Assembly (NCBI GenBank): GCA_007695095.1
Contig: REEL01000173.1
Coordinates: 1-35,788, forward strand
Direction: 5' to 3'
DNA length: 35,788 nt
Origin: Chitinophagaceae bacterium
GTDB lineage: Bacteria; Bacteroidota; Bacteroidia; Chitinophagales; REEL01
A program made the position numbers and the translations under genes. Position 1 is the first letter of the stretch; every line of letters begins with the position of its first letter. Of the stretch, positions 1 to 5,687 are shown in pieces. The notes under the pieces were generated by a model that saw only the letters and a list, made by a program, of their open reading frames with translations, was not told where the DNA came from and ran no database searches.

Positions 1-1
1 T

Positions 2-23
2 AACCGAAAGGCGAGCGGTTTTT
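2..23 (+). terminator. Hairpin followed by T-run at window edge (terminator or part of an attC-like site)
   Basis: AACCG (2-6) pairs with CGGTT (16-20) around a 9-nt loop and is followed by Ts to position 23. This could end a gene lying to the left of the window. The surrounding 60 bases are more GC-rich than the following gene and end in GACGTTAGCC, so the hairpin may instead be part of a larger recombination-type structure cut by the window edge. Confidence 0.3.
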
Positions 24-92
24 AACTTCGCCACAAAGCTTATGCGCGGGACGTTAGCCACCATATTAAAAACCGACAGTACAAGACGAAAA

Positions 93-3000
93 ATGATACT
101 AAACAAGTACCAGACATACGGACAAATTCAAAAAAGGGGCTACTCATTGACAGCGCAAGTTGAAAATGAAAATGGTGAAGTTTTTTTTGCGAAATGGATA
201 AGTGGCATAAAGCGAAACTCTCAACCAAGTAAAATCTTATTTGACAAACTTCGACACTTAAAGAAAGCGGTACATCCATCGTTACCAAATATTGTTGAAT
301 ACGAATGGGATGAAAGTAAAGACGCTTACTGTATTATTTTTGAATACAAAAATGCTCAATCACTCGAAGAACGAATTTGGGACATTAAGCCAACTTTCTT
401 TCTTAAAGGAATAGAGCAGATTATCAGCTGTCTTCAACAACTCCAACAAAATCACAGATTATCGCACGGAGACATAACTCCTGCAAACATATTAGTAGAT
501 GAAAATCTTGATTTTTATCTGATTGACTTTGGTATTTCCGATATATCATCAACATTAAGTCAAGAACAAAACCTCGAAATTTTTGCCAAAGAATTTGCAG
601 CACCTGAAAAATGGAATAGAAAAATACCAAGAGGTTTTCCATACCAAACTGACATTTATTCAATGGGGAAAGTAACTGAATGGTATTTCGGACAAAAAGA
701 CCTTACAGAATACCATGACATTAAACTATTAATAGATAGCACTTGCAGACAAGAACCATCTAGCAGAATTAACTATAACTCTTTATCCGAATTATTAGGA
801 AGAATTTCCTCAACTATTGTTTTCGACAATGAAAACGTTGTTTTTGTTACTGATGGCAATAAAGATATATTGAATGAGTTAAATAATCCAGAAATAAGAC
901 CCAAGTTTGATGTTAGTCCTAAATCAGGGGATAACATTTTACTTGATATTGCAACAGAAAACTATTGGCTTCATTGTCTGTGGCTCATTGGTGAACAGAA
1001 ACTTCTAATTAGAAGTAGTGAACGCAAAGAACAAAATCCATCAAAATACTCAAGAGTGCAGAAATACGGAGTAGATTTCGGACTGCCTTTGAATTTTTCA
1101 GAACCTTCATATTCATACCGGCCAAGTTTTAATCTAACAACAATCTTAAAGAAGGCACAGAAGGAAAAACAACACGAAGGAGAATACAGAAAAGGGAAAA
1201 TTGAGATCAATAAAGAACTTCTTTTTTTCAAAGAACTACTTGAAAAAGAATTGAAAGTCTTGGAAGAAAATTCTCTGAGATTGAGATATGACACTTTTGA
1301 AAAGAAAGGAGAATTTGAAATTTGGTTTAAAATTCAAGAGAACGAAAAGTATTCCAGGAACGGACATATATTTTCTCACATTGACAAAGCAACACCACCA
1401 AACCCAGAAGAATTTGAATACATTTTGAGTCAAACGGCTGATAAAAAGCAAATGAAAGAGCCTTTGAAATTTTCGGGTGTTGCTTTTGACTTTAATACAA
1501 AAAGTAGAGTGTTCAAATTCAAAGATTGTGAGCGTTTAGACTTTGAGAAAATACCCAAAAATGGGTATCTCTTTGAGAACATAAGTAAACAAGAAGAAGA
1601 AAAAAAGCGGCAACAGGAAGCAATAAGAAAAGTTGAATATAATGAAGTTCAAAACAGAGATTTAATTCACTTCTTATTTAATCCAACGGACTTGCAAGGA
1701 AAATATTTAGAGCAATATGAACTTGAAAAAGTCTTTCAAACAGATAAAGAAGGAACTAAATTAAGTTATAGTTCAAACCAAACTAGAGCAATTTTAAATG
1801 CGATTCAAAGAGAACCATTAACCGTAATACAAGGTCCTCCGGGAACAGGTAAGACCACAGTAATTACAGAAATTGTATTTCAAATTCTAGACAAAAATCC
1901 TGATGCAAAAATCCTCATTACATCACAGACAAATGATGCTGTTGACAATGTATTGGATAACCTTTTAGAAAAAGAAATTCCAATAGTTCGATTGAGTGGA
2001 GTAAGAAAACCTAAACAATCATTAAAAAAGCACACTTTAGAACGAAAAATTGAAGGTTGGAAAGAAGAAGTTAAGAAAAAAGCACAAAACGAATGGAAAA
2101 AATTGGAAACCAACTTTCTTCAAGAAATTGAAAAAGAAAATGTATTGCTCAAATCAATAGTGAATATTCTGATTGATAAAAAAGATTGGAAAACCAAAAA
2201 AGCACAAATAGAGAAATTGCTCGAACGCATTAAAGGATTTGAAAGTATAAACAACTCACTTCAAAATCAAGACACCTTACTTAATGCTCTTGACAAACAA
2301 ACTAATTGCGGAATTTTATCTTTTTTCAGAAAACTGCAAATTCAAATTGATTGGCTTGCTGCTATAAGTTCATTAGATGAGAATAGCACCGTAAATCAAA
2401 AACTGATTGATAGTATTAGAGTTATTGGAGCAACAACAAATCATATCGCATCAAAAAAATATGCTAAGTACAACTTTGAGTTTGATTATGTGATAATGGA
2501 TGAGAGCGGAAAGGCAACAACCGCAGAAGCATTGATTCCAATTGTTTTAGCTGAAAAATTGGTTTTAGTTGGAGACCATAGACAATTAAGACCAATGCTT
2601 ACCGCAAACCGTGAAGTTGAAAAATGGCTAAGAAATAAATTCAAATCAGATTCAGATGATTTTGACAGTTGGGATGATTACTTCAATAGACCAAGTATTT
2701 TTGAGCAAGTCATTACTCGAATAGATGAAGATTTCAAAAGCCAACTCGAAGAATGTAGAAGAATGCCCGAAGATGCCGTTCTACTTACCTCTAAATGTTT
2801 CTATGAGCCATATAATGAACGAATTGAGCCTATCAAGAGAACTAAGGATAAAGAACATAACCTTGACATTAAAGTGGACAGCTCCATTATATTTTTAGAT
2901 ATTGGTAATACTCATAAAAGCGAAATTGATAGTAGTGGTTCGTCTCGTAATAAATTAAGCTCAAGTTTTATCCCAAAATTGATTTTGGAGCTAGATAAGT

Positions 3001-3416
3001 ATGACAAAGTCAAAGACTATTCTCTTGGAGTCATAACAGGTTATACGGCACAGTTAAGAGAGATTAAAAAAATTGTTCGGAAAGAGCTTTATAACAAGCA
3101 ACTTAAAAGAATTAAAACATCTGATATAGCTATTTCGGTTGTTGACAAATTTCAAGGCTTAGAAAAGGATATTATCATTTTTGATTTAGTTAGAAGCCAG
3201 CAAAACACGCTAGGATTTTTAGCTAATGCAAACAGAATAAATGTGGCACTTTCGAGACATAAAAAACTACTCATTATCATTGGGAATTATGATTGGCTTG
3301 TTCAAGTAAAGTCAAATTCAAACAATGATTGTACTCCTTCTATTCCACCTCTTCAAAAATACTTAAAGGAGATAAAAAAGGAGTGGATTGTGAAAAATAT
3401 TCAACAGATATTCTAA
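93..3416 (+). CDS. mkoA: Kinase-helicase fusion protein, type I Mokosh MkoA-like anti-phage protein
   Basis: Two-domain protein; residue numbers count from the upstream ATG at 42. The N-terminal third is Ser/Thr-kinase-like, with Lys51 in FAKW, the catalytic-loop HGD at 142-144 with Asn149, and DFG at 162-164. A middle region rich in Glu and Lys links it to a superfamily 1 helicase of the COG1112/UPF1 type: Walker A GPPGTGKT at 598-605, motif II DESG at 820-823, motif III GDHRQL at 844-849, KFQGLE at about 1036-1041, and motif VI NVALSR at 1067-1072. All key ATPase residues are present. I prefer the ATG at 93 (residue 18) because the kinase fold begins there and the first 17 codons lie in GC-rich upstream sequence; the ATG at 42 is possible. 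The next gene, a PLD nuclease, overlaps the stop codon. Kinase+helicase followed by PLD is the published type I Mokosh layout, and that assignment is made from architecture only. Confidence 0.78.
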   Translation: MILNKYQTYGQIQKRGYSLTAQVENENGEVFFAKWISGIKRNSQPSKILFDKLRHLKKAVHPSLPNIVEYEWDESKDAYCIIFEYKNAQSLEERIWDIKPTFFLKGIEQIISCLQQLQQNHRLSHGDITPANILVDENLDFYLIDFGISDISSTLSQEQNLEIFAKEFAAPEKWNRKIPRGFPYQTDIYSMGKVTEWYFGQKDLTEYHDIKLLIDSTCRQEPSSRINYNSLSELLGRISSTIVFDNENVVFVTDGNKDILNELNNPEIRPKFDVSPKSGDNILLDIATENYWLHCLWLIGEQKLLIRSSERKEQNPSKYSRVQKYGVDFGLPLNFSEPSYSYRPSFNLTTILKKAQKEKQHEGEYRKGKIEINKELLFFKELLEKELKVLEENSLRLRYDTFEKKGEFEIWFKIQENEKYSRNGHIFSHIDKATPPNPEEFEYILSQTADKKQMKEPLKFSGVAFDFNTKSRVFKFKDCERLDFEKIPKNGYLFENISKQEEEKKRQQEAIRKVEYNEVQNRDLIHFLFNPTDLQGKYLEQYELEKVFQTDKEGTKLSYSSNQTRAILNAIQREPLTVIQGPPGTGKTTVITEIVFQILDKNPDAKILITSQTNDAVDNVLDNLLEKEIPIVRLSGVRKPKQSLKKHTLERKIEGWKEEVKKKAQNEWKKLETNFLQEIEKENVLLKSIVNILIDKKDWKTKKAQIEKLLERIKGFESINNSLQNQDTLLNALDKQTNCGILSFFRKLQIQIDWLAAISSLDENSTVNQKLIDSIRVIGATTNHIASKKYAKYNFEFDYVIMDESGKATTAEALIPIVLAEKLVLVGDHRQLRPMLTANREVEKWLRNKFKSDSDDFDSWDDYFNRPSIFEQVITRIDEDFKSQLEECRRMPEDAVLLTSKCFYEPYNERIEPIKRTKDKEHNLDIKVDSSIIFLDIGNTHKSEIDSSGSSRNKLSSSFIPKLILELDKYDKVKDYSLGVITGYTAQLREIKKIVRKELYNKQLKRIKTSDIAISVVDKFQGLEKDIIIFDLVRSQQNTLGFLANANRINVALSRHKKLLIIIGNYDWLVQVKSNSNNDCTPSIPPLQKYLKEIKKEWIVKNIQQIF

Positions 3417-4765
3417 TGAAAATACAAGAAATACATCAAAAACTTGAAAAGCAGTGTGCTAGTGATTATAGAATCAATGAAATAATTCTATTTGCATATC
3501 CATTTAGACGTATTCGGATCAATGCAACTGTTAACAAATCACCTGAAAAATCAATACAGCAGATTTACTCTGTTTTGTTAAAAACAATTTTAGAAGGATA
3601 CACCAAAGAAGATGACCTGATAAAATTTTTGGGTTTACATAAAGAAGATTTTATTTTGCGTGAACTCTATTTTTTAAGAGAAAGGGGCTTTGCAGATTTA
3701 ACATCAGGTAATTGGATTGTAACGGACCAAGGCAAAGACTTTATAAAAGACAACTCGATTCTTAAAATTCTTGAAGAAGAAGAATTTGAGTTCTTATTTG
3801 ATACTGTTTCAAATGATATAGTGTCAAAAGAATTCAGACTTAATTCTCAAAAAGACATTGAAAACAAACTTTCCTCTGAGTTTGATTTTGAACATAAAAG
3901 CCCTGAACTTTTAAATGATAAAAACGAACAGTTGTCTGACATTTACAAACGGCAAAATAATGGGAAGGCTTTTCTTGTTGACTATGACAAGAATAAAATT
4001 CTCTTTGACAAAAAAGAGTATAACGACTATTACCTAATTGAATACATTCCACGCAAAGGCAAAGAGAATGAACTTGAACCATTTATTGAAGTAAGAAATT
4101 TTGAGAAGGAAATTAAACTTGAAAAGCGGCTCACAAAGGTTCTATCGAAGAAATACCCCACAATACTTTACCAGTTTTCTAAATCAGAAAGAACAGTTTT
4201 AGCTGAAATCGAAGAAGACGATTATGAAGTTTTAGAAGAATTCCAAGCCAAAGAAACAGCTCAAACTAATATTTCAACCACAGAAACTCTTTCTGTTTGG
4301 GAAACACAAGCGAAATTTGAAGAAGCACTAAGAACTGTAAAAAACAAAATACTTATTGAAAGCCCTTGGATTAAGAAAGCAACTTTGAAGTACATTCAAT
4401 CAATCGAAAATGCTTTAGAAAAGGGAATTTCAGTAATTATTCTATATGGCATTGAAAGTAATGACGAACACCATTTTGGCACTATTGAAAAACTTAGAAA
4501 CCTTGAAAGAAAATACAACAAGAATTTTTACTTAATTCATTTGCCAACACACTTCCAGAGTAAACAAAACTACCAAATGACAGGTACTCACAGAAAATTA
4601 GTTATCAAAGATGACGACTATTACATACAAGGTAGTTTTAACTTTTTGTCTTTCAATAAGAAGGAAGGGCAAAAAGTTGCCAATGAAGAAAGTGTATTAA
4701 TAAATAATGATGTGTCTAATAAATGGGAGTCAGTATTTAAAGGCTATGAACTAGATAAAAGATAG
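3416..4765 (+). CDS. mkoB: Phospholipase D-family nuclease, type I Mokosh MkoB-like
   Basis: 449-residue protein. The C-terminal part (about 300-449) is a PLD-like domain with a textbook HxKx4Dx6GSxN motif: His392, Lys394, Asp399, Gly406-Ser407 and Asn409. There is only one such motif, so an active enzyme would need to dimerise, as single-HKD nucleases do. The N-terminal 120 residues look like a winged-helix region, and the middle is acidic and unrecognised. An open frame runs upstream to 3329, but the ATG at 3416 shares its A with the stop of the helicase gene (TAATG). That is classic translational coupling, so I chose it. The protein probably acts with the upstream kinase-helicase as the nuclease arm of a Mokosh anti-phage system. 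The family link is established knowledge; function here is inferred. Confidence 0.78.
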   Translation: MKIQEIHQKLEKQCASDYRINEIILFAYPFRRIRINATVNKSPEKSIQQIYSVLLKTILEGYTKEDDLIKFLGLHKEDFILRELYFLRERGFADLTSGNWIVTDQGKDFIKDNSILKILEEEEFEFLFDTVSNDIVSKEFRLNSQKDIENKLSSEFDFEHKSPELLNDKNEQLSDIYKRQNNGKAFLVDYDKNKILFDKKEYNDYYLIEYIPRKGKENELEPFIEVRNFEKEIKLEKRLTKVLSKKYPTILYQFSKSERTVLAEIEEDDYEVLEEFQAKETAQTNISTTETLSVWETQAKFEEALRTVKNKILIESPWIKKATLKYIQSIENALEKGISVIILYGIESNDEHHFGTIEKLRNLERKYNKNFYLIHLPTHFQSKQNYQMTGTHRKLVIKDDDYYIQGSFNFLSFNKKEGQKVANEESVLINNDVSNKWESVFKGYELDKR

Positions 4766-4779
4766 AAATTTAATAACAA

Positions 4780-4807
4780 AATCCATTCTTAGGATTCCTT
4801 TTTTAAA
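4780..4807 (+). terminator. Weak terminator after the Mokosh operon
   Basis: AATCC (4780-4784) pairs with GGATT (4792-4796) across a 7-nt loop, followed by CC and a run of six Ts. The stem is only 5 bp and AT-rich, so this is a modest candidate. Its place, 15 bases after the nuclease stop, supports it. Confidence 0.4.
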
Positions 4808-4842
4808 TAGTTTTTATAATTGTAATCGAAAAAAAATTTAAA

Positions 4843-5391
4843 ATGCCCATACTGGATAAAGCAACTAAGGAGCAAATTAAAAAACTGGATCACTCGACTC
4901 TTCAAGATATAGTAGTTAAACTTGCTTCTAAAGAAAAATTAGTTTATGATTATATTTTCATCAACTATCTCGATAAAGAGCTTGGAGAAAATGAATTGTT
5001 TGAAGCTACAAAAAATGATCTGGAAGTGATTTTTCGAAAAAGATTTAAAGGTTTTTCACAGGAACTGCAATTGGCAAACATGTTGGGAGCCTGTATTAAA
5101 AGAATTAATGAATTTACTAAAATCTCAAAAAACAAAGCTTTAGAGGCAGATTTGTTATTATATGTGCTGGAAGTTCCTTTTTCTTTGACACCCATGATGT
5201 TTGGAACTTGTTTTACGCAATACGATACTAAGGTCGCTATGATTCTTAAACGCTTGATAAATGTGGTAACCAAAAAACTTCATGAGGATTATAAAATTGA
5301 ATATCAGGAAGCAATAAATGACTACCTTCAAATTCTTCATCACAGATCAAACCATATTGATACTGTTTATCATTTACCAAAATCAATTTAA
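4843..5391 (+). CDS. Hypothetical protein, possibly DUF6155-like
   Basis: 182-residue soluble protein with no signal peptide or membrane segment. It reads as mainly helical: a charged N-terminal third beginning with a pattern like K-x-L-x-x-L-[DS]-x-x-x-L-x-x-I, a middle segment with Phe-Arg-Lys-Arg, and a hydrophobic stretch around residues 103-125 ending in FGTCFTQYD. The general layout recalls small Bacteroidota proteins of the DUF6155 type, but I cannot confirm that. Its stop codon overlaps the start of the next gene (TAATG at 5389-5393), so the two are translationally coupled. It begins 77 bases after the Mokosh nuclease gene on the same strand with a weak terminator between them, so a role in defence is possible but unsupported. 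Confidence 0.6.
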   Translation: MPILDKATKEQIKKLDHSTLQDIVVKLASKEKLVYDYIFINYLDKELGENELFEATKNDLEVIFRKRFKGFSQELQLANMLGACIKRINEFTKISKNKALEADLLLYVLEVPFSLTPMMFGTCFTQYDTKVAMILKRLINVVTKKLHEDYKIEYQEAINDYLQILHHRSNHIDTVYHLPKSI

Positions 5392-5687
5392 TGGAAAATC
5401 AACCGGAAATTAAGCTTAATGCCTTTCAGATTAATATCTTGCTAAATGATGAAGAAAAGGAGACTTTAGAATTCATGCTTGATAATAATAACGTCTTTTG
5501 TAGTACTTGTCTCAGTTCTTGTAAAAAAGGAGTGGAAATCAAAGAATATATATTGGATTCGCGAAATGACATCATGATTGAAGGCAACTGCAAAGTTTGT
5601 AATGGTAATGTATGCCGGATAATAGAATTTGGAGAAAATCCGGATTTCAACAAAAAAGCAAATGATTTTAGAAAGTCTGTCAGATAA
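5391..5687 (+). CDS. Small cysteine-rich, probable zinc-binding protein
   Basis: 98-residue protein with six cysteines. Two CxxC pairs (Cys37/Cys40 and Cys67/Cys70) plus Cys44 and Cys75 suggest a zinc-ribbon-like knuckle. The rest is acidic and polar, with no transport signal. The start ATG overlaps the stop of the preceding 182-residue gene, so the two proteins are probably made together and may interact. I do not recognise a family. A regulator, or a metal-stabilised partner of the upstream protein, are both possible; the sequence does not decide. Confidence 0.6.
   Translation: MENQPEIKLNAFQINILLNDEEKETLEFMLDNNNVFCSTCLSSCKKGVEIKEYILDSRNDIMIEGNCKVCNGNVCRIIEFGENPDFNKKANDFRKSVR

Follow-up and report, generated by a model that had tools for sequence, protein, structure and literature searches.

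The 35,788-nucleotide contig REEL01000173.1 of a Chitinophagaceae bacterium (assembly GCA_007695095.1), analysed here at its full length and hereafter called the window, carries near its left end two adjoining genes, mkoA and mkoB. We conclude with good confidence that mkoAB is a type I Mokosh-family pair, in a Bacteroidota branch. In addition, MkoA contains a hypervariable module that may act as a swapped specificity module, and mkoAB in related genomes is bounded by attC-like sites, in the manner of an integron cassette.

A probable type I Mokosh-family gene pair

Type I Mokosh reportedly goes back to Millman et al. 2022. It is known here from the PADLOC profiles and from PMC10952713 and PMC11291487. 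The pair in the window resembles it in combining a kinase and an SF1 helicase in one protein, in having a PLD nuclease as the next gene, and in matching the MkoA profile over its full length. The initial annotation had assigned the pair to type I Mokosh from this gene order, and both proteins match the corresponding PADLOC profiles. MkoA is matched at E 6.9e-141 over positions 8–1102 of 1112; of the two MkoA models in PADLOC, with 1112 and 1607 positions, it is the shorter that the window protein covers from one end to the other. The following features make up the pair.

93–3416, plus strand: mkoA, 1107 amino acids; Ser/Thr-kinase-like domain and Upf1-like SF1 helicase (PADLOC MkoA; Pfam Pkinase, AAA_11 and AAA_12; PDB Upf1 and IGHMBP2)
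93–842, plus strand: MkoA kinase domain, residues 1–250 (Pfam PF00069, 52.7 bits; catalytic residues conserved)
858–1157, plus strand: MkoA hypervariable module, residues ~256–355, a predicted small alpha/beta domain (identity contrast, approximately unbiased (AU) test, AlphaFold2 (AF2) model)
1755–3413, plus strand: MkoA helicase core, residues 555–1107 (AAA_11/AAA_12; best solved relatives Upf1, NAM7, SMUBP-2 and Sen1)
3414–3418, plus strand: TAATG stop/start overlap, one base common to mkoA and mkoB (from sequence)
3416–4765, plus strand: mkoB, 449 amino acids; N-terminal part and C-terminal PLD-family nuclease domain (PADLOC MkoB; AF2 model)
4589–4642, plus strand: single HKD motif of MkoB, HRKLVIKDDDYYIQGSFN; H392, K394, D399, G406, S407 and N409 are invariant in 19 sequences

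The open reading frame (ORF) of mkoA runs from an ATG at 93 to the stop codon at 3414–3416, and that of mkoB from an ATG at 3416 to a stop ending at 4765. Both frames, and their joined stop and start, lie exactly where the initial annotation had placed them. Most relatives have a junction of the same kind, and the start codons of both genes agree with those of the relatives in alignments.

The linkage of the two genes is conserved. Among 20 full-length MkoA relatives (46–91% identity, all Bacteroidota by their titles), mkoB lies directly downstream of mkoA in 19, and the contig of the twentieth stops at mkoA. Such conservation is more than would be expected by chance. A further relative beyond these 20, from the window's own order (L004; G097), has the same pair, with MkoB following at 47% identity.

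Several observations count against this assignment. The PADLOC match of MkoB is partial (E 5.6e-33, positions 8–399 of 610), and its PLD Pfam score of 19.1 is below the gathering cut-off of 27. The NERD domain, which is named for type I Mokosh (PMC10952713), is absent among the Pfam matches listed (best 25 of 34, up to E 0.1), although it may not be obligatory in every member. Moreover, the helicase half taken by itself has no diagnostic value: in 10 of 14 control genomes, the MkoA family has matches at E 1e-30, and many ORFs of ~640 amino acids match by the helicase part only. Because ordinary helicases give high scores with this half, what carries the assignment is full-length coverage together with the partner gene. 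The pair accordingly differs from known type I Mokosh in the unseen NERD domain and in the length of MkoB (449 residues versus a 610-position profile), as well as in the hypervariable module and the cassette carriage, for neither of which did we find a description in Mokosh.

Two other assignments were rejected. Type II Mokosh consists of MkoC, a helicase fused to a PLD domain, and its profile partly matches both window proteins (E 5.8e-35 and 4.3e-17); in the window, the helicase and the PLD domain are unfused, in two separate ORFs, and a kinase domain is added. The helicase region of MkoA is also similar to the PLuB helicase-like protein (NF040671), at 154 bits, far under the cut-off of 999.

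Catalytic motifs

The kinase residues of MkoA are K34, H125-G-D127, N132 and D145-F-G147, and its helicase has the Walker A motif at residues 580–589 and DESG at 803–806. In MkoB, the motif HxK(x4)D...GSxN occupies residues 392–409. In alignments of 18 MkoA and 19 MkoB sequences, these motifs show no variation, or next to none at a few positions, in agreement with the earlier view that all of them are intact. That view needs correction in one respect, as MkoB has only one HKD motif.

Nuc, NucT and Zucchini are single-HKD nucleases that act as dimers. As MkoB shares the single HKD motif, it probably forms a dimer in the manner of Nuc. A fold search with its AF2 model (mean predicted local distance difference test score (pLDDT) 77) matches these three nucleases, with template-modelling scores by target of about 0.5–0.6 for the C-terminal fold, while a PDB sequence search with MkoB gave no real match, so that the relationship is seen by fold search only. 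Unlike these nucleases, MkoB carries an extra N-terminal part of ~290 residues, which may include a winged-helix-like stretch.

A hypervariable module in MkoA

The closest copy of the pair is that of Alkalitalea (L033). Its MkoA is 96.8% identical to that of the window outside residues 240–360, but only 44% identical within residues 256–355. At the DNA level, the flanking 60-codon blocks are 87–99% identical, in contrast to 51–62% inside the module. The contrast between the rest of the protein and the module recurs in L034/L037 (93% versus 54.5%) and in L036/L037 (94% versus 60%), and the module is shared within the pairs L035/L036, L041/L052 and L042/L043.

The trees point in the same direction. 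The rest of the protein supports the clade L034-L035-L036-L037 (Shimodaira–Hasegawa-like approximate likelihood ratio test (SH-aLRT) 98), whereas the module data reject this clade (AU p 4e-5), which was named for the test after the identities had been seen. The grouping of the window with L033 was not rejected in the module tree (AU p 0.22), nor was that of L037 with L051 in the rest-of-protein tree (p 0.19). The proposed swap therefore rests on the rejected clade together with the identity contrast, and these suggest that the module has been replaced by divergent alleles. The AF2 model shows the module as a discrete alpha/beta domain, with a pLDDT of ~74–89 per block over residues 251–340. 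This confidence is above that of most of MkoA, which reaches only 66.8 as a whole.

Cassette ends in the relatives

The 4874-bp contig of L033 begins with CGTTAGCCACC, and just past mkoB it has GGTGGCTAAC together with an imperfect hairpin of ~122 nt. Similar sites follow mkoB in L034 and L036. An attC covariance model built from 18 sites, with these three mkoB-side sites held out, finds the held-out sites at 34 (L033), 85 (L034) and 102 bits (L036). It also finds many further sites, nearly all of them one-stranded within each locus. Six Bacteroidota genomes have attC-like sites on the borders of mkoAB. In L033, L036, L043, L044 and L049, the cassette has complementary ends and an attC hairpin, and in L034 its ends are nearly complementary. 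The DNA folding of single sites is at best weakly below that of shuffles (z +0.1 to -2.3); since this signal is weak, the case for attC is built on the covariance model and the test of cassette ends, not on fold energy.

The suggestion in the initial annotation that the pair is an acquired cassette thus turns out to be literally apt, the relatives being integron-type cassettes, and this explains how an operon of two defence genes could pass from one lineage of Bacteroidota to a distant one. The arrangement is like that of the sedentary chromosomal integrons that serve as defence stores (Darracq et al. 2025, cited in PMC13064858) in that a defence operon is an attC-bounded cassette in a chromosomal array. 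It differs from them in the host phylum, in the length of the attC-like sites (~122 nt between the cores), and in the Xer-type recombinases, which score under the IntI cut-off.

The copy in the window

At the edges of mkoAB in the window, we assign the following features.

1–52, plus strand: putative attC-like site of an upstream cassette since lost, of which the contig edge leaves the 3′ half; this half ends ...GCGGGAC / GTTAGCC, like the R′ sides of attC
53–62, plus strand: cassette 5′ end (R′ core), GTTAGCCACC; the same sequence starts the L033 contig
4751–4842, no strand: right junction, where the homology to the Alkalitalea cassette stops (last base of the blastn alignment 4750) and the 3′ attC that would be expected is missing

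The 5′ end GTTAGCCACC is perfectly complementary to the GGTGGCTAAC that follows mkoB in L033. The covariance model has no attC match in the window, so that a 3′ attC was not found after mkoB, and the cassette in the window has probably been truncated, with loss of this site. No repeat of the 92-bp left flank occurs in its own genome, and the genomes of 13 relatives have no significant match to it. Compared with one and the same Alkalitalea genome, MkoA is 91% identical, while the phosphoribosyl pyrophosphate (PRPP) synthetase is 58% and RlmB 37% identical. Because of this difference between MkoA and the housekeeping proteins, the simplest reading would be that mkoAB was recently transferred between distant Bacteroidota, with loss of its 3′ end, unless the contig is chimeric.

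Two facts speak against this reading. The attC model gives the half-site at 1–52 only 2.8 bits, as it cannot score such a half, and for this reason the assignment rests on the cassette boundary common with L033. Furthermore, the locus is at a contig end, so the left 4.75 kb could be a chimeric assembly from the integron array of another organism, in which case the Mokosh pair would be real but foreign to this genome. The contig indeed starts within the attC-like half-site, the homology to the Alkalitalea cassette stops abruptly at 4750 without an attC, the hosts are distant, and no array was found in the window's own genome. However, recent transfer accounts for the same facts, and the low GC content runs on past the junction at 4750 to ~6 kb, with no composition step at this point. 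We therefore consider a chimera unlikely and retain the reading of a transferred, truncated cassette.

The initial annotation had placed housekeeping genes directly to the right of the pair, which has to be corrected. Two AT-rich genes of unknown function (4843–5687) come directly after mkoB, and the right flank at 4.8–9.6 kb encodes unknown proteins, DUF4142, DUF6544 and a glyoxalase. Clear housekeeping genes (L25, PRPP synthetase, tRNA-Gln and RlmB) begin only at ~10.2 kb. The Pfam and NCBIfam matches that were seen point to no other defence genes in the window, the defence library having been run on the two Mokosh proteins only. Elsewhere in the same genome, there is one good attC-like site at 49.6 bits (G000:C117:2125-2261, L119), with no array around it.

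A large attC array and Xer-type recombinases

The chromosome of SSA2 (CP058707.1, loci L049 and L142-L168; G106:C1:3,475,867-3,982,375) has about 270–335 attC-like sites on one strand over ~507 kb. A separate script counts 269 sites on one strand of this chromosome and none on the opposite strand or after shuffling, and the covariance model has 336 matches at E 0.01 over stretches of this chromosome and one Alkalitalea stretch. In this array, the 5′ end of a cassette pairs with its own 3′ end at 4.42 of 6 positions, as compared to 2.3–2.5 for the ends of its neighbours. Such own-end pairing is the mark left by excision and insertion at the core. A Xer-type recombinase (3,985,786–3,986,913) stands at the head, and the whole is a superintegron-like array in a Bacteroidota chromosome; it may be a larger discovery than the Mokosh pair. 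Within it, the SSA2 mkoA (L049 7001–10335) is interrupted in frame and the stretch translates with ambiguous residues, which may reflect a sequencing error or a broken gene.

Xer-type recombinases lie at or near the array heads in SSA2, Winogradskyella and Maribacter, and their position suggests a role in the arrays. Tyrosine recombinases of 368–391 residues with an N-terminal extension occur near attC arrays at L104 15559–16731, L105 8204–9367, L106 3479–4582 and L168 5786–6913. Three recombinases scanned against TIGR02249 score 178–209 bits, under the family cut-off of 265, and their two-part match skips profile positions ~180–238; they therefore lack the IntI-specific insertion and are not IntI by this test. 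With TIGR02249, neither the genome of the window nor those of 7 relatives gave an IntI over the cut-off. The spacing from box I to HxLRH is 93 residues in 5 of 7 recombinases, which we take to be Xer-like. In Alkalitalea, a 676-aa ORF (L169; G100:C53) resembles two tandem tyrosine-recombinase units, and an attC-like site lies at the contig end.

Reviews count Bacteroidota among the integron hosts (PMC8618304, PMC9668308), and the IntegronFinder 2.0 survey of >20,000 complete genomes reports complete integrons in Bacteroidota as only rare (Salinibacter; PMC9024848). Integrons in this phylum are thus not new as such, but within the literature covered, the array size and the recombinase type may be. 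It is about an even question whether large integron-like platforms exist in Bacteroidota that are driven by Xer-type recombinases lacking the IntI-specific insertion and that spread two-gene defence operons such as Mokosh across orders as cassettes of ~5 kb, while MkoA swaps its specificity module by recombination.

Proposed mechanism and implications

How might MkoA and MkoB act? The gene pair, its motifs, its conserved linkage, the hypervariable module and the cassette ends of the relatives can all be read from the sequences, and on this basis we propose the following model, in which defence activity, complex formation, the nuclease target and the module as sensor are suppositions. Using the Upf1-like helicase together with the swappable module (residues 256–355), MkoA would survey nucleic acid or a phage product. 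Subsequently, the kinase and ATPase activities would switch a MkoA–MkoB complex. Finally, the co-translated MkoB, as a dimeric Nuc/Zucchini-like PLD nuclease, would cut phage RNA or DNA. We know of no trigger for Mokosh.

As judged from gene neighbourhoods, mkoAB would act in phage defence. The main independent support comes from several relatives outside cassettes that adjoin defence genes, namely a type I restriction enzyme in L035, where NsnA is present too, and in L051, PDC-M16B in L041 and HmaB in L045. In known plasmids and phages, there is no close full-length relative, and one IMG/VR contig has a partial one (L185). The pair might instead be a Mokosh look-alike, a non-defence unit of an Upf1/IGHMBP2-like helicase and a PLD nuclease that processes nucleic acids in RNA turnover or repair. 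The helicase half does strongly match housekeeping helicases (TIGR00376, 186 bits), but transfer between distant hosts, carriage in cassettes, defence-gene neighbours and rapid divergence of a module are untypical of housekeeping RNA decay, which makes such a unit highly improbable. A narrower question, which leaves the assignment to Mokosh untouched, concerns the module. It may decide what MkoA recognises; it could also be a surface diversified to evade inhibitors that phages encode, or could serve the kinase, which it directly follows, as a regulatory substrate. Diversification and recombination fit either pressure, and sequence cannot separate this reading from that of a sensor. We hold the inhibitor or substrate reading to be a plausible but not the favoured account, and prefer the module as a swapped specificity module.

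Relative to known Mokosh, the module and the cassette carriage would be new. The naturally swapped module between kinase and helicase offers a ready-made experiment, with two alleles that are 97% identical outside it. The cassettes, in turn, indicate that Bacteroidota, for which complete integrons were rarely reported (PMC9024848), have a large reservoir based on attC.
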